Shown in pieces: positions 1,424 through 37,950 of a stretch of DNA of 37,950 nt. Origin of the DNA: a virus. The notes beneath the pieces are model-generated. The model was not told the DNA's origin. It worked only from the letters and a program-made list of their open reading frames with translations, and did not search any database. The translations under genes were made by a program, and so were the position numbers. The stretch spans positions 1 to 37,950 of IMG/VR virus record IMGVR_UViG_3300025201_000015; one strand, written 5' to 3'. Every line of letters begins with the position of its first letter. The first letter of the stretch is position 1.

Positions 1424-2248
1424 TCATGCGACGGCCAGATCGGTCCAGTCGCGGTCGATGACGTCGAAACCGGGGCAGAGCTTGGCCGCGACCTCGCGGT
1501 GGCCGAGGAGCCGCTTGAACTGCGTCTGCTGGCCAAACTCGGCGATGCTTTCGCGCGCTGCCGCCAGCTGCTCGGGGTAGTAGAGCTGCTCGGGGCGATA
1601 GGTCCGGTCGATCGTCTTGCGTTCGATCATCAGCACGTGCTTGACGCCGCGGTTGTGACCGATGGCGCCCGCGCCGTAGCGCTCAAGCGGGCGGGCTGCG
1701 ATCCGCTCACCATCCGGGCAGATGATCTCGTGATAGCCGATCATAGACCAGCCGCGCCCGCCCTGGCTCTTCGGAGCGGTGTGCATGCGGTGAACCGCGG
1801 CAACGATCTCCGCGTTGCTCTTGTCGACGTGCCAGTCGCCCGGCAGGGCGCCGCAGTGGAGCATGAAGGTGTCGATCACCGTGCCGGCCGAGCCTTGGCG
1901 CAGAACGCGGTCGTGGGCGACCGGCAGCTCTGGCTTGTCAGGTTCCAGCACCTTGGTCGGATCGGCCACGCTCGCCGCCGGGGCGCCGTCATTGTCGATG
2001 ACCTCGCCAAGGGCATGTTTCTCCATGGCGTCGAAGCCACCCTCAGCAGGGCCTGAGAGATAGCCCAGACCGATCAGGCCCCGGCGCAGCGTGACCAGCG
2101 CCCATTCCGAGCTCTTGACCGGCCCCTGCCAGTAGAGACCGTCGGCGGCGCGAGCGGTGTTGCGGCCATACCAGCCGTCGATCTGGCCAGGATCGTAGCC
2201 GAGGGACCGAAGCCCCAGCTGCAGGTATCGGATTGCGGGGTGCATCAT
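1424..2248 (-). CDS. Endolysin: N-acetylmuramoyl-L-alanine amidase with N-terminal peptidoglycan-binding domain
   Basis: A 274-aa endolysin. Residues 1-75 look like a peptidoglycan-binding domain (LGLRSLGYDPGQIDGWYGRN). Residues 120-270 form an Amidase_2 (T7 lysozyme-like) domain. Probable zinc ligands are His131, His250 (LGHREV) and Cys258 (CPGFD), with Tyr172 and Lys256 in the positions of the T7 catalytic Tyr and Lys. It should cut the amide bond between N-acetylmuramic acid and L-alanine at the end of infection. There is no signal peptide, so it needs the neighbouring holins for release. GGGAG precedes the ATG. A hairpin with seven T residues sits directly upstream, which is odd for a late lysis gene. 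Confidence 0.9.
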   Translation of the reverse strand: MMHPAIRYLQLGLRSLGYDPGQIDGWYGRNTARAADGLYWQGPVKSSEWALVTLRRGLIGLGYLSGPAEGGFDAMEKHALGEVIDNDGAPAASVADPTKVLEPDKPELPVAHDRVLRQGSAGTVIDTFMLHCGALPGDWHVDKSNAEIVAAVHRMHTAPKSQGGRGWSMIGYHEIICPDGERIAARPLERYGAGAIGHNRGVKHVLMIERKTIDRTYRPEQLYYPEQLAAARESIAEFGQQTQFKRLLGHREVAAKLCPGFDVIDRDWTDLAVA

Positions 2249-2262
2249 TAGTGGTCTCCCAT

Positions 2263-2286
2263 AAAAAAAGCCCGCGCGTGGCGGGC
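2263..2286 (-). terminator. Rho-independent terminator just upstream of the amidase
   Basis: Read leftward, GCCCGC and GCGGGC pair around a 5-nt loop and are followed by seven T residues (2263-2269), a textbook intrinsic terminator. It ends only 14 bp before the amidase start codon, so it would stop leftward transcripts from the tail genes before the lysis cassette unless antiterminated. On the plus strand there is no downstream T-run. Confidence 0.75.
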
Positions 2287-2347: not shown

Positions 2348-2379
2348 TTGACAGAAGCCATGGCGGCTGCAAGTACCGA
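2348..2379 (+). promoter_or_regulatory. Candidate promoter for the O-antigen gene
   Basis: A perfect -35 hexamer TTGACA lies at 2348-2353. The matching -10 is weak: AAGTAC at 17-bp spacing, or TACCGA at 20-bp. It stands 50 bp upstream of the plus-strand O-antigen gene, which runs against all its neighbours and therefore needs its own promoter. Confidence 0.4.
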
Positions 2380-2403
2380 TGCATTCGGGCCGAGGTTTTT
2401 TTC

Positions 2404-3690
2404 ATGCTGCCATATCGCATTGCGTTTTTCTTCGCCGTGATTGCCGCCTACGCTGTCGGGAGCTCCAGCACGCCCGACGCTATCGGAATTCCAGAGGTCA
2501 TCATTGCGGGTTGCCTCGTCGGTATGATCGGCGTGACTGGCGGCCTGTCCGCCCTCATTCCTCAGCGCTCAGACACGATATTCATTGCCGCATCCCGCGC
2601 AGCCCTCGCCTACCTGATCGCGGTGCCGCTCATGGCTGGCGCGATTCGAGGCAGCAGCACCGGGGCAATCATCCGCGACGTGATTCCCCTGCTCTACATG
2701 TTCCTGTTTTTGTTCATGGCCCGAGCTATCCGTCGCGATCCCACGCGCTGGCTTTCGCTTGCAGCGCATGGCCTCCTGTTCATCGGTGTCTGCTTTTCAG
2801 TGCGCTTCTACATGCTGCCGAATACTGATTTCCTGCAAATCGGGCGTCAGGTGCAATTCGGTGATATGCGATATTTCCCGCAAGACCCTGCCGTGACCTT
2901 CGCCAGCGTTTTCGGGATGCTTGAGGCGTTTCGGGCATTCGAGCGCCGCCGCTATTTTGCCGGGGTGATTTATGCGGCTGCGGCCTTTGTCGCCTTCGCG
3001 GCCCTCGCGGGAATGATGGTCCGAGCGGCGATCCTGCTAACGTTGCTGGTGCTGGTTGCCCGCGTTGCCGTCATGCGCGCGAGCGGAGCGCTCGGGTTTA
3101 TTGTCAAGGGCGCGGCGCTGTCCGTTGTTGCCTATGCGATTATCTCTGCACTGCCCGTCCTGTCTCTCGTCGCCGCGAAATTCGAGGCAGTGGGGACCAA
3201 TTCGAAAACCGAAGAAATGACCGTGCTCTGGGAGTGGTCGGGCGCGTCCTTTGCAAATCTCGTCTTCGGCACCGGCTGGGGCGGGGAGTTCGAAACGCCC
3301 ACCTATCTGGAGCCGGTGCGATACGTGCACAACCTGCCGGGATACCTGCTGCTCAAGGCCGGACTCGTCGGCGGTCTGTTTGGCCTGCTGATTGTCTTTC
3401 GGGCCTTCCTCGTCCCGCTCGTGATGTGGCCCGCCAGCACATTCGGGCGCGGCGCGGAGGATATGCGCGCCGCTGTCCTTGGCGCAGGGCTGGCAACATT
3501 TTCGTCGGCGCTGTTTCTGCAACCGACGTTCAAGTCCCTCTCTTTTGGCCTGATCCTGCTCGCCGTTATTCTGGCAAGCAGGAAGGAGCGGAGGCTAAGC
3601 CACTCGGACAGCTTTGAGCGTGAGGTCCTTGGAGCCACCGCCGTTGTTGGTGATCGTGAAGGCAAGGCCGCTGCTGCCCGCAGTTACTGA
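2404..3690 (+). CDS. O-antigen polymerase/ligase-like membrane protein (moron)
   Basis: A 428-aa polytopic membrane protein with about ten to twelve hydrophobic spans and a large loop near residues 265-300. The VHNLPGYLLLKAGLVGG segment (about residues 300-317) resembles the HN-plus-glycine region of Wzy/WaaL O-antigen polymerases and ligases. It probably alters how surface polysaccharide is polymerised or attached. The start at 2404 is supported by GAGG 8 bp upstream; an in-frame ATG at 2296 has no comparable site and would add an unrelated 36-aa extension. It is antisense to every neighbour, and its last 96 bp overlap the end of the tailspike gene on the other strand. Its AT content is locally higher than that of neighbours. 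Wzy or WaaL type cannot be decided here. Confidence 0.8.
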   Translation: MLPYRIAFFFAVIAAYAVGSSSTPDAIGIPEVIIAGCLVGMIGVTGGLSALIPQRSDTIFIAASRAALAYLIAVPLMAGAIRGSSTGAIIRDVIPLLYMFLFLFMARAIRRDPTRWLSLAAHGLLFIGVCFSVRFYMLPNTDFLQIGRQVQFGDMRYFPQDPAVTFASVFGMLEAFRAFERRRYFAGVIYAAAAFVAFAALAGMMVRAAILLTLLVLVARVAVMRASGALGFIVKGAALSVVAYAIISALPVLSLVAAKFEAVGTNSKTEEMTVLWEWSGASFANLVFGTGWGGEFETPTYLEPVRYVHNLPGYLLLKAGLVGGLFGLLIVFRAFLVPLVMWPASTFGRGAEDMRAAVLGAGLATFSSALFLQPTFKSLSFGLILLAVILASRKERRLSHSDSFEREVLGATAVVGDREGKAAAARSY

Positions 3691-5640
3691 CGTGCTGCTA
3701 TGCGTCGTCAGCGCCAGCGCGCTGTTGCTGCCGACGACGACGACACCAGTCCAATACTGCTGGTCCGTGCGGATGAACGTGCCCTGATCGACCGTGACGA
3801 GATAAACCCCGTCATCCGTGAAGGTGTAAAGCGTCTCGGTCGCCGCCGCCGCCACCGTGACCGCAGAGCCAGTGACAGACTTGTAAAGCGCCGCCGTCGC
3901 ATTGCCGGTAATGTCTGCGTCGTCTTCGACCGTCAGCGCCTTGGCGGCAAGAGGTGCCGCTGCCGCTTGGCGGTAGCGTTCAGTCACCGCAACATCCTGG
4001 TCGGTCAGCAGGATTGTATCAACCTCAACGGTGCCCGTGCTGCCGCCGGTCGTCTGGAACACGAAATACGGATCGGAGCCATTCGAGGCCGCGTGGAAAT
4101 AGCTGTATTGCCAGTCACTGTCCGTCGCGCTGTTGTGGTCCCGCGAATATGCGTGTGATGCGCCGCCAAGTGTCAGGCGGTTATCACCCGCCGTCGAGCG
4201 CCATTTGATGAAGCCCGAAATATACCCGGCCCCGACCAGCCTCATACCGCTGCGCTGCGTCGAGGCAGTGAAAGCGATTTCGACGTTGCTTGAGCCGTTG
4301 ATCGACTTGGCTCCATGCGCGCCGGTCGGGGAATAGCTCAGGTCGTCAGTTGCAGCGGTGGTCGTGCAGTCCGGGTCCGCAAACACGTTGGTATACGGCC
4401 CGACCTCCGGCATCCCTTGGCCGTGATAGTCAGTGATTTCCACGCCGCCGCTGTCGGTCGCCGTGATGTTGGGGCGGATACCACGCCACTTTTCAGCCGA
4501 CGCCTTGTCAACGTTGAATTTCGTGGCCGACTTGAATAGCGTGCCTTGAACAGAGATCGACGTATCGACCAGCGTAAGCGCGGGGACGTCGTATGCCTCC
4601 CAATAGCCGCCGATGAGCGAGATTGACGCGCAGGTGTCAAAGCGCATCCCCTGGTTCTGGACCTGACAGCCTGCAAACGTGATCCCGTCCGAGAACTTCA
4701 CATCGACCGAGTGCCCGACGCCCGGAAGGGTCGGGTCGTAGTGATAGAACGTGCAATTTGTAAACGCGATGGCATTCGCGTCCTCGCCGGATGCCGGGAT
4801 ATTCCGGAAGCCGGTCTTGTTGTCCCGAAACACGCAATCCGTGAACTGCGACCAGTAGAACGCCTGATCGACGTCAATGGCGATGTCGGAATCACCGAAC
4901 CACACGCGCTCGAACGACGCGAAGTAGCTCGCGGAGGTCATGGTGATCATTGTCGCGCCGGTGGATTTGAGACGCATGTCGCTCAGGGTCACGTAATCAT
5001 CGACCGCCGCGTTCAGGTCCATGATCGTGCTGCCGCCGCCGTCGAGGATCGTGCGCCGCTTGCCCGCGCCCCGCCACGTCAGGGCGCTGCTAACCGACTT
5101 GCCAGAGAGCGAGACCGTGCCAGCGCCGAAGCCGTCAAGAGCGTACAACTTCACCCCGCCCAATGTGACCAGGTCGTGATCGGTTGCGCCGGATGGCGCG
5201 ACCTCGAAGCGGCGACCGACGGCTTCGATAATGTCGCCATCCGCGACGGAGTAGACACTGCCAGAGGTGTAGGTCAGCAGCGCATCGCCGGCCATGTCGG
5301 TGACCGCCTCGAAGCGCCGCGCCAGCGCCATGAGCGCACTGTCCATCTGCGTCTGCGTCGGGACAGTCGCAAGCTCGGTGGCGCTACCGCCATCATTGAG
5401 ATAGGCCGCAAGCTGGTTTGACGCCGCGACCATGAACGTATCGCCGTTGGACGTGTCAGCGAGGCCCGCAGCCGTTGATTGGTAAACGGTCCCGGTGCCG
5501 ATAGCCCCAGCCAGCGCCGTGGTATCGATGCTGTCTTGGAGGGCATCGAATCCCGCCTGCACGGCCTGCTCAAGCGTGCTTTTGGTCGTGGTCTTGGGAT
5601 CGCTGCCCGTCGTGGTCAGCGAGAAAGTAGGTGCAGCCAT
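3595..5640 (-). CDS. Tailspike / tail fibre with beta-helix-like region
   Basis: A 681-aa receptor-binding protein. Residues 1-110 probably attach it to the tail. Residues about 170-400 show the repeated short strands of a parallel beta-helix, such as FTDCVFRDN, FTNCTFYHY and FAGCQVQNQ, typical of tailspikes that bind or cut surface polysaccharide. Residues about 430-555 look like a beta-sandwich carbohydrate-binding module, and residues 580-681 form a Ser/Thr/Val-rich C-terminal domain. No catalytic residues can be assigned. It follows the J-like tail protein by 15 bp. Its 3-prime end overlaps the O-antigen gene on the opposite strand, which fits a link between receptor recognition and receptor change. 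Confidence 0.75.
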   Translation of the reverse strand: MAAPTFSLTTTGSDPKTTTKSTLEQAVQAGFDALQDSIDTTALAGAIGTGTVYQSTAAGLADTSNGDTFMVAASNQLAAYLNDGGSATELATVPTQTQMDSALMALARRFEAVTDMAGDALLTYTSGSVYSVADGDIIEAVGRRFEVAPSGATDHDLVTLGGVKLYALDGFGAGTVSLSGKSVSSALTWRGAGKRRTILDGGGSTIMDLNAAVDDYVTLSDMRLKSTGATMITMTSASYFASFERVWFGDSDIAIDVDQAFYWSQFTDCVFRDNKTGFRNIPASGEDANAIAFTNCTFYHYDPTLPGVGHSVDVKFSDGITFAGCQVQNQGMRFDTCASISLIGGYWEAYDVPALTLVDTSISVQGTLFKSATKFNVDKASAEKWRGIRPNITATDSGGVEITDYHGQGMPEVGPYTNVFADPDCTTTAATDDLSYSPTGAHGAKSINGSSNVEIAFTASTQRSGMRLVGAGYISGFIKWRSTAGDNRLTLGGASHAYSRDHNSATDSDWQYSYFHAASNGSDPYFVFQTTGGSTGTVEVDTILLTDQDVAVTERYRQAAAAPLAAKALTVEDDADITGNATAALYKSVTGSAVTVAAAATETLYTFTDDGVYLVTVDQGTFIRTDQQYWTGVVVVGSNSALALTTHSSTSVTAGSSGLAFTITNNGGGSKDLTLKAVRVA

Positions 5641-30232: not shown

Positions 30233-30567
30233 GCCCGATGACGCGCACCAACACACCGGCCCCCGCGCAGTCTTGCCGGCGTCCGGCCCCGCCCTGCGCC
30301 CCTCCCGCGCCGGGCGGGGCCACAGACGAGATCGAGGATGACGGGTTCATCACCGTCCATCCCCCGCTGCCGCGCCCGAGGGCCGATTTCACCGCCCGCC
30401 GTCTGGCCGCCGCCCGCGCCGCCCTGGCTGCGCCGAGCGACCACAACGACGCCGTGCTTTACGAGGCCTGCTGGATCGTCGGCGCCTACAGCATGGATCC
30501 GCCCGAGATCGCCGACGCCGCCGCCCTGGCCGCGCGGCTGGCCCGCCAGATGGAGGCCGCGGCGTGA
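30229..30567 (+). CDS. Unknown Pro-rich protein
   Basis: A 112-aa protein whose first 30 residues are rich in Pro and Ala, followed by FITVHPPLPRPRADFTARRLAAARAALA and a helical C-terminus. It overlaps the preceding gene by 4 bp and the methyltransferase GTG by 4 bp, so it belongs to the same translation-coupled set. Not recognised. Confidence 0.5.
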   Translation: MSPMTRTNTPAPAQSCRRPAPPCAPPAPGGATDEIEDDGFITVHPPLPRPRADFTARRLAAARAALAAPSDHNDAVLYEACWIVGAYSMDPPEIADAAALAARLARQMEAAA

Positions 30568-32591
30568 GTGCGCCGCTGATCATCGATAGCTTTGCCGGCG
30601 GCGGCGGAGCCAGCACCGGCATCGAGCTGGCGCTGGGCCGCAGCCCGGACATCGCCATCAACCACTCCGCCGCAGCGCTGGCCCTGCATGAGGCAAACCA
30701 TCCCGAGACGTTGCACCTCGACAGCAACATCTGGGACGTCGACCCCCGCACCGTGACGTCCGGCAAACCTGTCGCTCTGCTTTGGGCCAGCCCCGACTGC
30801 AAGCATTTCTCCAAGGCTAAGGGCGGTGCCGTCCGCGACCGCAACATCCGAGACCTCGCCTGGGTCGTGGTCAAATGGGCCGAGGACGTGAAGCCCGATG
30901 TGATCATCATGGAGAACGTCGAGGAATTCGTGACATGGGGCCCGATTTGCGAGGAAGGCAAGCCCATCAAGGAATTCGCGGGCGTCACCTATGAGGCCTG
31001 GCTGAAACGCCTGAAATCGGCCGGATACAAGGTCCAGTCACGCGAGTTGCGCGCCTGCGACTATGGCGCACCGACGATCCGCAAGCGCTGGTTCCTGATC
31101 GCGCGCCGTGACGGCCTGCCGATCACCTGGCCGAAGCCGACCCACGGCAACCCGAAGTCCAAGGCTGTGAAGCGAGGCAAGCTGCAGCCGTGGCGTACCG
31201 CCGCCGAATGCATCGACTGGTCGATCCCCTGCCCGTCGATCTTTGACACGTCCGACGTCATCAAGGCGAAGCACGGGTTGCGGGCGATCCGGCCACTGGC
31301 AAAGAACACGCTGGCCCGCGTGGCCCGCGGCATGAAGCGCTATGTGCTGGAGGCAGACCAGCCGTTTCTGGTCAACCTCACCCACGGCGCGCGCACCGAA
31401 AGCGCCGCTGAACCGTTCCGCACCATCACCGGGGCCAACCGAGGCGAAAAGGCGGCGGTCTGCCCGAGCCTCATGTCGCTCAAGGGCACCGCCCGCCGCG
31501 CCAGTGCCGCCACCGCACCGCACCCGACCGTGTTGGCCGGCGGCGGGCATTCGGCGCTGGTTGCCGCTAGCCTGACCCGATTCAATACCGGCGCGACAGG
31601 CCAGGACGCCCGCGATCCACTGGCGACGATCACCGCGAATAGCTGGATCAAGAAACCCGGCGGCTGCGCGCCGCTCGGCATTGTCGCGCCCTTCCTCGCA
31701 ACCATGCGCAACAGCCAGAAGCCATGGCAGGGAGCAGGTGAGCCAACCCACACGATCACCGCCGGTGGCGCGGGCCTGTCCCTCTGCGCCCCAGTCCTCA
31801 CCTACGCCCAGCACGGCGGTGCCAACCGTCCCGCGACCGCACCGCACCACACCATCTGCGCCAACCAGAAAGACCAGAACAGCCTGATGGCCGCGACCAT
31901 GATCCACGTCGGAAACGGCGAACGGGCGGGCCAGCAGCCCCGCGCCCTCGACATCGCCGCGCCTCTGAATACCGTCGTCGCGGGCGGCGTGAAGCAATAC
32001 CCCGTGGCGGCGTTCCTTGCCCAGCAGAACGGCGGGCCGAGAATGGAGTCGCACGCCGGCCACGATCCGCGCGAGCCGCTCAGCACCGTTGCCGCGACGG
32101 GCAGCCACCAGACACCTGTCGCCGCCTTCTTTGCCAAGTACTACGGCACCGGCGACGGCGCCCGCACTTCGGACCCGTTCCACACGATCACCGTGAAGGA
32201 TCGCTTTGCCCACACCCAGGCAGAGCTCAGCGCCCCACCGTTCGCAGCCGAGCATCACGCCCGGGCGCGCGAGGTGGCCGAGTTCCTGCGCGAGCATGAC
32301 GCGTGGGATGGCGGCGAGTACGTGACGCTGACCATCGACGGCCAGACCTTCGTGGTGGTCGACATCGGCCTTCGGATGCTGACCCCGCGCGAACTATTCA
32401 ACGCCCAGGGCTTTCCACCCGATTACGTCATCGACGGCATCTGGACCGAGAGCGCCGGCGAATGGGCTTTCGAGCCCTTCACCAAGAACGTGCAAGTGAG
32501 CTGCTGCGGGAATTCCGTCTGCCCGCCGATCGCCGAGGCGCTGGTGCGAGCAAATGCGCCAGCATCCCTTGCCCGTGAAGCCGCTGCCTAA
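30564..32591 (+). CDS. Cytosine-C5 DNA methyltransferase with repetitive target-recognition region
   Basis: A 675-aa C5-cytosine methyltransferase, GTG start. Motif I is DSFAGGGGASTG (about residues 8-19), motif IV has the nucleophile Cys79 in ASPDCKHFSKAKGG, motif VI is ENVEEF (117-122), and RMLTPRELFNAQGFP plus GNSVCPPIA close the fold near the C-terminus. Between them lies an unusually long variable region (about 280-545) made of seven to eight degenerate units with core APx-TIxA, such as DPLATITANS, EPTHTITAGG, APLNTVVAGG and EPLSTVAATG. No restriction partner is adjacent. It probably methylates phage DNA at several sites. Length is nearly twice that of a single-specificity enzyme. Confidence 0.88.
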   Translation: MSAPLIIDSFAGGGGASTGIELALGRSPDIAINHSAAALALHEANHPETLHLDSNIWDVDPRTVTSGKPVALLWASPDCKHFSKAKGGAVRDRNIRDLAWVVVKWAEDVKPDVIIMENVEEFVTWGPICEEGKPIKEFAGVTYEAWLKRLKSAGYKVQSRELRACDYGAPTIRKRWFLIARRDGLPITWPKPTHGNPKSKAVKRGKLQPWRTAAECIDWSIPCPSIFDTSDVIKAKHGLRAIRPLAKNTLARVARGMKRYVLEADQPFLVNLTHGARTESAAEPFRTITGANRGEKAAVCPSLMSLKGTARRASAATAPHPTVLAGGGHSALVAASLTRFNTGATGQDARDPLATITANSWIKKPGGCAPLGIVAPFLATMRNSQKPWQGAGEPTHTITAGGAGLSLCAPVLTYAQHGGANRPATAPHHTICANQKDQNSLMAATMIHVGNGERAGQQPRALDIAAPLNTVVAGGVKQYPVAAFLAQQNGGPRMESHAGHDPREPLSTVAATGSHQTPVAAFFAKYYGTGDGARTSDPFHTITVKDRFAHTQAELSAPPFAAEHHARAREVAEFLREHDAWDGGEYVTLTIDGQTFVVVDIGLRMLTPRELFNAQGFPPDYVIDGIWTESAGEWAFEPFTKNVQVSCCGNSVCPPIAEALVRANAPASLAREAAA

Positions 32592-33064: not shown

Positions 33065-34057
33065 ATGTCAGACACCCCCACCATCCCCGCCGGCGAGAAC
33101 CCGGCCGAAACCATGCGCAAGGCAATGGAAGCCTTGGGCAAGACCGAACACATCGAGTTCGCGCCGGACCAGACCCAGACCCTGCCGCTCTTCGTGTCCG
33201 TACCGCAGGGCCGCAGGATCGAGGACCTCGGACCCAAGATCCGAGAGGCCGCTGCCTTCGTGAAACCGTTCCACCGCAAGGGCACGGCCCGGCTCGAAAC
33301 ACTGGTGAGCCTGATCGACTGGGCAAACCGGTTCAAGGGCAGCAGCTCGACCCTCTTCGCCAATCCCGACATGACCGCGCCCTCGCTGACATGCATCGCC
33401 GACTACCATGCCGAGGGCGCGCCGAAGATCGACGGTGAGTTCGGTGACGACAGCGCCCGGCACTGCCATCACCGCGGCGTCTACAAGTTCCCGCTCTCCG
33501 ACGAATGGAAGGCCTGGATGACCGTCTCCGGCAAGCCGCTCGAGAAAGACGAGATGGGCGAGTTCATCGAGGCCAACGCCAAGGACGTGATGGACCCGAC
33601 CCCCGGCATCATCGACGGCCAGGAAAGCGATGCGCTGCAGCCCTGGGAAAACCGCTTGATCCGCACCGCGCGGCAGATCGAGGGCCGGTTCGGCCAGCTG
33701 CATCAGCTGCTGACCATGTCCAAGCGCTTCCAGGTCTATGAGACCAGCGACCTCAAGGTCACCACCAACCGCGACAGCGGCGAGGCCGAGATCCAGTTCC
33801 TGAACGAACACAAGGACGCCGACGGCAAGCCGCTGAACATCCCGAACCTGATCATCATCACGATCCCGGTGTTCCGCGGCGGTGCGCCCTACCGCATGCC
33901 GGTGCGCTTCCGCTACCGCAAGAGCGGCGCCAGCGTGAAGTTCATCCTGACCGTCTACAATCCCGAGAAGGCCTTCGAGGCCGCCTTCGAGGAAGCGGCC
34001 GTCGAGGCCCAGCAAAAGACCGACCTGCCGCTGTTCTACGGCGCGCCGGAAAGCTGA
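33065..34057 (+). CDS. DUF2303 (YfdQ-like) protein
   Basis: A 330-aa protein of the DUF2303/YfdQ family: PLFVSVPQGRRIEDLGP (about residues 41-57), RKGTARLETLVSLIDWANRFKG, SLTCIADYHAEGAPKIDGEFGDDSARHCHHRGVYKFPLSDEW (about 106-147) and IITIPVFRGGAPYRMPVRFRYR (about 262-283). Members occur in many temperate phages near recombination or methylase genes; function is not known. GAGGA stands 8 bp before the ATG. Intact. Confidence 0.8.
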   Translation: MSDTPTIPAGENPAETMRKAMEALGKTEHIEFAPDQTQTLPLFVSVPQGRRIEDLGPKIREAAAFVKPFHRKGTARLETLVSLIDWANRFKGSSSTLFANPDMTAPSLTCIADYHAEGAPKIDGEFGDDSARHCHHRGVYKFPLSDEWKAWMTVSGKPLEKDEMGEFIEANAKDVMDPTPGIIDGQESDALQPWENRLIRTARQIEGRFGQLHQLLTMSKRFQVYETSDLKVTTNRDSGEAEIQFLNEHKDADGKPLNIPNLIIITIPVFRGGAPYRMPVRFRYRKSGASVKFILTVYNPEKAFEAAFEEAAVEAQQKTDLPLFYGAPES

Positions 34058-34414: not shown

Positions 34415-34720
34415 ATGAGCCCTTTGACCGAACCGCTGCGCGATGCCCGCCGCGTCCCGCGCCCTCTCGACGAGTGGCACGAAGATGACGGCGACGTGCT
34501 CTGGTGGTGCTGGGACGGCAACGGATGGCTGGGCGAATCGCCCTACGTTGGTTCGCCTCTCGACCTCGGCCACACCGTCGAATGCCATACGCACCGGGAG
34601 ACCGGCGAGAACCCCGCCGCCCGCTTCGATGTTGGCGGCTGGCCCGGCTACCACACCCACTGGACGCCGCTTCCCGCGTGGCCCTACCCGCCAGATCAAC
34701 CTGGAGACGCCAATGGCTGA
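34415..34720 (+). CDS. DUF551-like protein
   Basis: A 101-aa Trp-rich protein (PLDEWHEDDGDVLWWCWDGNGWLGESPYV, about residues 17-45; WPGYHTHWTPLPAWP near 81-95). Start at 34415, with GGAGG 7 bp upstream. WTPLP-type endings are typical of DUF551-like phage proteins of unknown function. It overlaps the DUF5131 gene by 8 bp. Confidence 0.6.
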   Translation: MSPLTEPLRDARRVPRPLDEWHEDDGDVLWWCWDGNGWLGESPYVGSPLDLGHTVECHTHRETGENPAARFDVGGWPGYHTHWTPLPAWPYPPDQPGDANG

Positions 34721-35771
34721 ACAGACCAAAATCGAATGGACGGACGCGACGTGGAATCCGATCACCGGCTGCACTCTGGTCGATGATGGGTGCCGCAACT
34801 GCTATGCCGCCGAGCTGGCCGCGACCCGCCTCAAGACCCACCCCAGCCGCGCCGGGCTGGCCCGGAAGAATGCCTCCGGCGTTGCCAAGTTCACCGGCGA
34901 GGTCAGGTTCAATGACCAATGGCTGGCGCAGCCTCTGGGCTGGAGGAAGCCGCGCATGGTCTTCGTTTGCGCCCATGGCGACCTGTTTCACGAGAGCGTT
35001 CCGGATCAGTGGATCGACCAGGTGTTCGCCGTCATGGCGCTGTCGCCCCAGCACACGTTTCAGGTGCTGACCAAACGCCCCGATCGGGCGCGGGAGTATC
35101 TCTCACACCTTCAAGCGCGGATTTACTGGAATGACATCGCAGTGAAGGCCCGCGCGGCTGGTATAACCCTCTTGGGCGACATGTCGTATCTCAGGCAACA
35201 TGAGCTTGGTCCCCTCCCCAACGTCTGGCTTGGCACCAGCATCAGCGATCAGGCCAGCGCCGATGCGCGGATCCCCGAGCTGCTTGCCACCCCGGCGGCG
35301 GTGCGCTTCCTCAGCGCCGAGCCGCTGCTGGGGCCAGTGGACTTGGAGCCGTATGTTAGCCCCGCATGGTCCGCCGACGACGCCGAGTGGCCGAAACTCG
35401 GAAACCTCGACTGGATCATCGTCGGCGGCGAGTCCGGCCGCAACGCCCGGCCCATGCACCCGGACTGGGCGCGCTCGCTGAGGGATCAGTGCCAGCAAGC
35501 GAGCGTGGCGTTCTTCTTCAAACAGGCCGGCGCCTGGACTGCCTGGGAGTTCGCCAGCCCACCCTATCTGCGCAACGCCTTCACGGGCGAAGAGCAGGAT
35601 CGTCACGCGCTTCTGCCGGACCGCGAGACCTTCGACTGCGGCCGTGATTGGGATGACGGGTTGGAATTCGTGCCTGAGAGCAGCCATGCGGTTTTCCAGC
35701 GCATCGGCAAGAAAGCCGCCGGTCGCCTGCTGGATGGCCGAGAATGGAGCGAGGTGCCGGGATGCCTATGA
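34713..35771 (+). CDS. DUF5131 / phage Gp37-Gp68 family protein
   Basis: A 352-aa protein of the Gp37/Gp68 (DUF5131) family. It opens IEWTDATWNPITGCTLVDDGCRNCYAAELAATR (about residues 7-39); three Cys in C-x6-C-x2-C form a likely metal site. Then FVCAHGDLFHESVP (about 85-98), LTKRPDRAREYL, and GGESGRNARPMHPDWARSLRDQCQQASVAFFFKQ (about 236-269). The fold pattern is barrel-like and the Cys cluster is reminiscent of radical-SAM proteins although the spacing differs. Its role in phages is not known. Complete. Confidence 0.8.
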   Translation: MAEQTKIEWTDATWNPITGCTLVDDGCRNCYAAELAATRLKTHPSRAGLARKNASGVAKFTGEVRFNDQWLAQPLGWRKPRMVFVCAHGDLFHESVPDQWIDQVFAVMALSPQHTFQVLTKRPDRAREYLSHLQARIYWNDIAVKARAAGITLLGDMSYLRQHELGPLPNVWLGTSISDQASADARIPELLATPAAVRFLSAEPLLGPVDLEPYVSPAWSADDAEWPKLGNLDWIIVGGESGRNARPMHPDWARSLRDQCQQASVAFFFKQAGAWTAWEFASPPYLRNAFTGEEQDRHALLPDRETFDCGRDWDDGLEFVPESSHAVFQRIGKKAAGRLLDGREWSEVPGCL

Positions 35772-36715: not shown

Positions 36716-37000
36716 ATGTCCGTCGCCGTGACACGCTTACTGAAACCCGCCGAGGCCGCCGAAGTGCTGGGGGTCTGTGAAAAGACCTTGCAGCAATGCC
36801 GCGCGCGCGGGTTAAGGTACGTGACAGTCACGCGCGGCGCGATCCGCTATCGGGCGGACGATCTGGAAGCTTACATCGAGGCTCAGACATGCCGTTCAGA
36901 ACCGCCAAAACCAAAATCTGGCAATATGACATCCAGGTCCGGGGTCGTCGACTTCGCGGAAGCACTGGCACAGACGACTACGAGGAAGCGAAGGCAATAG
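36716..37000 (+). CDS. Excisionase-like HTH protein
   Basis: A 94-aa protein with a MerR/AlpA-type winged helix (LLKPAEAAEVLGVCEKTLQQCRARGLRYVTVTRGAIRYRADDLEAYIEA, about residues 8-56), as in phage excisionases and AlpA-like regulators. It lies directly upstream of the integrase, overlapping it by 112 bp out of frame. It should help prophage excision and could also control int. Confidence 0.75.
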   Translation: MSVAVTRLLKPAEAAEVLGVCEKTLQQCRARGLRYVTVTRGAIRYRADDLEAYIEAQTCRSEPPKPKSGNMTSRSGVVDFAEALAQTTTRKRRQ

Positions 37001-37950
37001 AGGCCGAGGTCAGGGCCCGGGCCAAGACCAGCCAGCCCGACCGCGCCGCCTGTACGCTCTCGCAAGCCTTCGGCACCTATCACGTCGACATCTGCCAGCA
37101 CCAGCCCAGCGGCGCCACCAGCGCCTCGCAGGCCAAGGCCATCCTGAAGCACATCCCGGGCCAGACACGCCTCGACGAACTCACCAATGCCGACCTGATG
37201 AAGATGGTGAACCAGATGCGCGCGAGCTGCTCGAACGCGACGGTGAACCGCCGCTTGCAGTACATGGGTCGCGCATGCCGGCACATGGTGAAGTTCTACG
37301 GTGCCGAGCTTGGCGATCTCAACTTCAAGGCGCCGGAGGTCAGAGAGGCTCAGGAGCGCATCAGGGAACTGTCGCAGGACGAACAGCGGCGCCTCTTCGA
37401 GAAGCTGCCAACCGACCTGCATGCACCGGTCACATTCTGCCTGATGACCGGCTGCCGGATCAGCACCATGGCAGGCCTGCTTTGGAGCGACATCGGCGAC
37501 AACGAGATCATCTTCCGGCTCAAGGGCGGCACGACGATGACCTTTCCGATCAGCCGGGAGATGCGGGCATTCCTGTCAGCCCTGCCGAAGTCCAACGTGA
37601 TCGAGGCCCGTCGCTATGTCTTCACCAGGATCGACAAGCAGACGATGGAACGGACGCGCATTGTGCCGAAGGGCGGCGTCTTCAACGCGGAATTCCGCGA
37701 GGCCGTGGCGGAAGCGAGGATCCCCGATTTCCGGTTCCACGATCTGCGACACACCTTTGCGACTCGCATGCTGCGCCAGACCCGAAACCTCAAGTTGGTG
37801 TCGCAGCTGCTGGGTCACAAGGACATCACCACGACCGCGCGATACGCTCATGTCCTGGTCGATGACATGCGTGCCGCGCTGGATGAATTCAGCCCGGTTT
37901 CGGGCGGCGACCCCCAGAATTTCCCCCAGAGCATCACCCTAAGTAATTGA
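36889..37950 (+). CDS. int: Tyrosine recombinase integrase
   Basis: A 353-aa phage integrase. N-terminal strands (IWQYDIQVRGRRLRGSTGT) form an arm-binding domain; a core-binding helical domain covers about residues 55-145; the catalytic domain has Arg190 (MTGCRISTMAGL), Lys212 (LKGGT), His284/Arg287 (FHDLRHTFATRM), His310 (LLGHKDITTT) and Tyr319 (ARYAHV). All catalytic residues are present. GAGG stands about 8 bp upstream of the start, inside the excisionase gene; an in-frame ATG at 36796 lies deeper in that gene and is not used. The stop is the last codon of the window, so any attachment site lies beyond it. Confidence 0.92.
   Translation: MPFRTAKTKIWQYDIQVRGRRLRGSTGTDDYEEAKAIEAEVRARAKTSQPDRAACTLSQAFGTYHVDICQHQPSGATSASQAKAILKHIPGQTRLDELTNADLMKMVNQMRASCSNATVNRRLQYMGRACRHMVKFYGAELGDLNFKAPEVREAQERIRELSQDEQRRLFEKLPTDLHAPVTFCLMTGCRISTMAGLLWSDIGDNEIIFRLKGGTTMTFPISREMRAFLSALPKSNVIEARRYVFTRIDKQTMERTRIVPKGGVFNAEFREAVAEARIPDFRFHDLRHTFATRMLRQTRNLKLVSQLLGHKDITTTARYAHVLVDDMRAALDEFSPVSGGDPQNFPQSITLSN

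Follow-up and report, generated by a model that had tools for sequence, protein, structure and literature searches.

A putative Wzy/WaaL-superfamily gene lying antisense between the tailspike and endolysin genes of a temperate phage of the Rhodobacterales group

The DNA analysed here (the window) is the entire IMG/VR record IMGVR_UViG_3300025201_000015, of 37,950 nt. Both of its ends fall at gene stops, the second being that of the integrase gene, and from this the record appears to be a trimmed provirus. The virus is a temperate phage of marine-type alphaproteobacterial bacteria of the Rhodobacterales group. Its kin are Rhodobacter phage RcapNL, Paracoccus phage Pthi1 and Mesorhizobium phage MseS-P1, and its terminase shares 87% identity with metagenomic contigs and 75–80% with prophages of Sagittula, Roseovarius, Salipiger and Pseudooceanicola. 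The open reading frame (ORF) studied, 2404-3690(+), starts with ATG and is flanked by a tailspike-like gene at 3595-5640(-) and an endolysin gene at 1424-2248(-). The features of the locus are as follows:

1424..2248, minus strand: endolysin, an amidase with a peptidoglycan-binding domain (PHROG amidase/endolysin, Pfam PG_binding_1)
2263..2286, minus strand: intrinsic terminator GCCCGC-CACGC-GCGGGC-T7, a perfect GC hairpin with seven T, between the 5' side of the ORF and the endolysin gene
2348..2353, plus strand: TTGACA, a -35 hexamer without a recognisable -10 (sequence, promoter scan)
2392..2395, plus strand: Shine-Dalgarno-like GAGG, 8 nt from the ATG (sequence)
2404..3690, plus strand: gene (moron) for a Wzy/WaaL-superfamily-like polytopic membrane protein of 428 aa (codon model, Wzy_C profile)
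3205..3207, plus strand: Lys, codon 268, where the GN1 arginine stands (profile alignment)
3268..3282, plus strand: GTGWG, codons 289-293, a GxG element aligned with Wzy_C GvGlgs (profile alignment)
3328..3372, plus strand: HN-LPGYLLLKA-G-LV-G, codons 309-323, a GN2/WaaL-type motif with the proposed catalytic His309 (motif match)
3595..3690, both strands: tail-to-tail overlap of 96 bp between the ORF and the tailspike gene (ORF coordinates)
3595..5640, minus strand: tailspike-like protein of 681 aa, with an N-terminus common to a near relative, a middle rich in beta-strands and a part resembling a sugar-binding module (low-confidence model)
36796..37950, plus strand: tyrosine integrase, marking a temperate phage

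The initial annotation had placed a plus-strand gene between endolysin and tailspike, overlapping the tailspike end by 96 bp, and these coordinates proved exact. Under a codon model derived from 16 phage genes, the ORF scored +109 bits in its own frame and all five other frames were negative, so it was confirmed as a real coding gene. The coding signal is even across about 1190 nt, without stops or frameshifts, and an open run of this length arose in only 3 of 2000 Markov sequences of equal composition. The in-frame stretch 5' of the ATG (2296-2403) scored -0.36 bits per codon and is non-coding; therefore, 2404 is the correct start, and a longer GTG start at 2296 was ruled out. In the 96-bp overlap, the codon signal sits in the tailspike frame (+0.19 vs about 0), so the last 32 residues of the ORF look like read-through into the tailspike gene. 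The GC3 of the ORF, 0.71, is below that of nearly all phage genes. The product is polytopic as first described, with ten hydrophobic segments counted on a longer, 464-aa reading of the ORF, and its loops, judged by eye, may fit the Wzy pattern of about 10-12 transmembrane segments with two large periplasmic loops.

The neighbouring gene at 3595-5640(-) may fairly be read as a tailspike. Its low-confidence structural model has short regular strands at residues 157-377 and a jelly-roll-like part at 463-545. The best PDB matches of this model, all weak, were phage tailspikes and capsule depolymerases, and against a viral library the matches were phage pectate-lyase-like proteins. Sequence searches of the PDB and of a phage collection gave no match, and the N-terminus is shared with the tailspike of the relative L146 (29% identity over 174 aa).

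Standard libraries did not place the product of the ORF. No Pfam family was found at E ≤ 1, the cut-off of PF04932 (Wzy_C) was not reached, as is also the case for several Rhodobacterales Wzy_C candidates, and searches of NCBIfam, PHROG and PDB gave no match. Relatives were likewise absent among phages, plasmids, viral contigs, genome contigs and the 45 host genomes of related prophages. Screening 397 genomes of one family gave no relative and four weak matches, and the two of these that ranked highest in tblastn were discarded as unrelated frames. Modelling from the single sequence reached an AlphaFold pLDDT of 48, and Foldseek found no PDB match below E 1 with a model too poor for comparison.

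A Wzy_C profile was then built from 30 strong Rhizobiales Wzy_C proteins, run without the HMMER composition correction and judged against shuffles. The ORF scored 49.4 bits, a value reached by none of 1000 hydropathy-preserving local shuffles (21.8 ± 4.9 bits, maximum 43.8), and the reversed ORF gave 27.5 bits. Two proven phage polymerases, taken as positive controls, scored 55.0 bits (epsilon15 Wzy-beta) and 24.3 bits (D3 Wzy-beta); relative to shuffles, z was 5.9 for the ORF, 4.6 for D3 and 9.4 for epsilon15. The negative controls P22 GtrC and D3 acetylase scored 11.2 and 19.6 bits, respectively. None of 16 other long polytopic open frames exceeded 33.5 bits, and one spurious-looking frame had a high z, yet only 27 bits. 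The protein of the relative L218, with a weak Pfam Wzy_C match, scored 79.4 bits. With that correction switched on, a smaller profile of 13 proteins (12 weak Rhodobacterales hits and L218) scored the ORF no higher than its shuffles, so that the profile evidence is good but not decisive.

The catalytic motifs were examined next to the profile alignment. In inverting Wzy and WaaL-type enzymes, the GN2 motif HNX9GX(2-4)G is C-terminal, from about residue 250 onward (PMC12502699). The ORF contains HNX9GX2G at His309, as in type-B (inverting) Wzy, at the place of the essential His300 of D3 Wzy-beta (PMC4815439). By chance, HNX9GX2-4G past residue 250 appeared in 9 global and 749 local shuffles out of 50,000 of each kind. 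The GN1 pattern RX(11-24)GXG upstream of GN2 was not found; a K-for-R version (K268) stands at that place, and the sole arginine match to the pattern falls after GN2. Equivalents of D3 Wzy-beta Arg254, Arg270 and Arg272 are missing, while that of the histidine is present (H309). Residues 226-305 hold no arginine, only the lysines K235, K259 and K268. Since the R270K mutant of D3 Wzy-beta fails to complement (PMC4815439), K268 is the main biochemical doubt. Overall, the profile score against shuffles and controls, together with the GN2 motif, supports the Wzy/WaaL-like identity initially proposed, whereas the silence of the standard libraries and the replacement of the loop arginine by lysine weigh against it.

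To compare the position of the gene, about 60 related phages and prophages (labelled L) were read downstream of their terminase genes. As the scan took in antisense or polytopic genes only, the counts are minimum values. In a set of 34 genomes starting at the terminase, no antisense genes of at least 250 aa were found in the first 16 kb, except in the rearranged L151; they then appear at the tail-lysis end, where some of those past about 20 kb may belong to host DNA. Across all relatives, the genes at this end encode acyltransferases (L202, L213, L220), an O-antigen acetylase (L219), the Wzy_C protein of L218, a GtrC-like glucosyltransferase with RgpF (L168), a GT61 protein (L211), a DXD glycosyltransferase (L223), a polysialyltransferase (L155) and methyltransferases (MseS-P1, L165, L173). 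Given so many antisense glycan-modifying genes, the tail-lysis region of related alphaproteobacterial prophages appears from gene content to be a slot for surface-glycan modifiers. A lysis gene was recognised on its far side in the window, L211, L219, L220, L223 and MseS-P1, and weakly in L202 and L173; it was not identified for L200, L213, L216, L218, L155 and L168, whose slots likely adjoin lysis genes too. L145 and L146, the closest relatives in which the slot is readable, carry no copy of the ORF, and the junction nucleotides showed no similarity to four near relatives. A survey of Rhodobacteraceae prophages mentions rhamnose-synthesis genes and, as far as selected terms of that source show, no such slot (PMC8224337).

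Some slots hold further genes. L200:11746-13143(+) and L216:9275-10669(-) encode antisense polytopic proteins of 465 and 464 aa without a convincing Pfam or PHROG family, which look like membrane glycosyltransferases. In prophages of the Brucella group, large late-strand methyltransferase/glycosyltransferase genes come right after the tail genes (L216:6154-9051(+), L213:6375-9675(+)), and are followed by differing antisense membrane genes, an acyltransferase in L213 and the 464-aa protein in L216.

The layout of a tailspike, an antisense Wzy-beta and lysis genes is already known from Salmonella and Pseudomonas phages and is little described for the group of the window. The temperate siphovirus D3 has the order tail orf27(+), iap(-), acetylase(+), wzy-beta(-), endolysin(+), with an antisense polytopic Wzy_C-type gene between a tail gene and the endolysin as in the window, and its Wzy-beta is the proven maker of the beta-linked O-antigen (PMC4815439). 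The D3 protein has its HN motif in the last large loop on the periplasmic side, and that of the ORF product probably lies there too. Unlike D3, the window belongs to an alphaproteobacterial host group, its locus showed no iap or acetylase partner (no small ORF nearby was convincingly Iap-like), and its protein has Lys for the catalytic-loop Arg and no detectable identity beyond the motif region. In epsilon15, the order is tailspike(+), O-antigen ligase-family gene(-), iap(-), holin/endolysin(+); the antisense gene (392 aa, ten transmembrane segments) is directly convergent with the tailspike, as here, and both products have the same VHNL-x8-G-x2-G motif. However, a terminator parts tailspike from polymerase in epsilon15, where the window has the 96-bp overlap and no Iap. 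In P22, the tailspike(+) faces gtrCBA(-), again convergent receptor-modifying genes beside a tailspike. In BTP1, gtrC is likewise convergent with the tailspike gene, and its product blocks superinfection (PMC4413052). These gtrABC and gtrC genes serve glucosylation/acetylation and not polymerisation, and the P22 site lies between tailspike and attP, not before the lysis genes. The Wzy_C protein VG_p25 of the Variovorax phage VarioGold also has ten transmembrane segments (PMC9658991); it is 31% identical to the D3 protein, a match that the ORF product lacks.

The D3/epsilon15 layout and the slot of glycan modifiers, with P22 and BTP1, lend good support by analogy to the initial proposal that the gene alters the glycan recognised by the adjacent tailspike. 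The ORF is thus probably a lysogenic-conversion gene for an inner-membrane glycosyltransferase of the Wzy/WaaL superfamily. We infer that this enzyme acts in the lysogen, on the periplasmic side of the membrane, upon host sugar units carried by undecaprenyl diphosphate; it would be an inverting, Wzy-beta-like polymerase, a ligase being less likely. The surface polysaccharide recognised by the tailspike would thereby be altered in linkage or length. The host of the prophage would stop adsorbing this phage and related ones, and released progeny would not be trapped on lysogenic cells. The arrangement itself is known; the novelty lies in this member and its lineage, and in the pattern of slots across alphaproteobacterial prophages. 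On this reading, lysogenic conversion of the D3/epsilon15 type by an antisense glycan polymerase would extend to temperate Rhodobacterales phages. In related prophages of Rhodobacterales and Rhizobiales, the comparison marks the junction between tailspike and lysis genes as a recurrent landing site for acetylases, GtrC-like, Wzy_C, GT61 and polysialyltransferase genes, and so as a place to seek receptor-masking genes, including those unrecognised by family libraries, in hosts whose glycans are hardly studied.

The product might instead be a polytopic glycan modifier of another GT-C kind, GtrC-like or other, with the same receptor role and different chemistry, the Wzy-like motif being a loose resemblance among membrane glycosyltransferases. 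The missing GN1 arginine is in line with this, as are the antisense polytopic slot genes elsewhere, which are GtrC-like (L168), acyltransferases or without family (L200, L216). Nevertheless, the Wzy_C profile gave those slot proteins no more than 26 bits, compared with 49.4 bits for the ORF, which also has the GN2 motif and the GxG element at the Wzy_C places, so that another GT-C chemistry is considered unlikely.

Regarding expression, the ORF has the ribosome-binding site attributed to it, and its own promoter is only half supported: the -35 hexamer TTGACA (one of 6 on the plus strand in the 37,950 b) is present, but the hexamer 17 nt 3' of it, AAGTAC, has 2/6 matches to a -10, and a promoter scan of the 2348-2353 region found nothing. 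No terminator was found between tailspike and ORF. Since the first one on the late strand, at 2286-2263, lies beyond the ORF, a late transcript of the tailspike gene would run through the entire ORF, and transcription of the late genes, if it occurs, should yield antisense RNA. The shut-off of the gene by this RNA during lysis, also put forward at first, is a speculation that the geometry allows. An arrangement that is chiefly regulatory, in which late antisense RNA silences the ORF at lysis or the ORF transcript damps a leaky tailspike in the lysogen, would agree with the convergent overlap and the long late RNA, and also with BTP1, whose tailspike shortens the O-antigen of the lysogen once gtrC is deleted (PMC4413052). 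It seems doubtful, since the overlap may be mere read-through of the last 32 codons, the convergent layout, a result of the orientation of insertion, is frequent at loci of this type, and no promoter was recognised for the ORF. Equally improbable is the stronger version, in which the tailspike-lysis junction is a dedicated, fast-exchanged slot where late tailspike transcription silences the receptor-masking enzyme and the enzyme transcript damps the tailspike in the lysogen, making spike and modifier mutually exclusive.

Least likely is a decayed or inactive polymerase, or a host-derived EPS/Wzy relic drifting without function: the lysine in place of the arginine essential in D3 Wzy-beta (PMC4815439), the low GC3, the orphan status and the absence from the slot of the two nearest readable relatives would fit, but the coding signal is uniform and uninterrupted, with start and SD-like site intact.

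Two minor observations were made. The window carries a DUF5131 protein (34443-35771(+)) with a DUF2303 protein (33065-34057(+)) and a C5-cytosine methylase (30564-32591(+)) nearby, and RcapNL carries the same three gene kinds. In addition, terminator-like hairpins GCCCGCC-N4/5-GGCGGGC followed by TTTT(T)(C)AT lie directly 5' of the ribosome-binding site and start codon of tail-lysis-end genes, at 2263-2286(-) in the window, before holin and amidase in L002 (Pthi1), four times in L205 and three times in L210, as possible markers of cassette borders or points of exchange.
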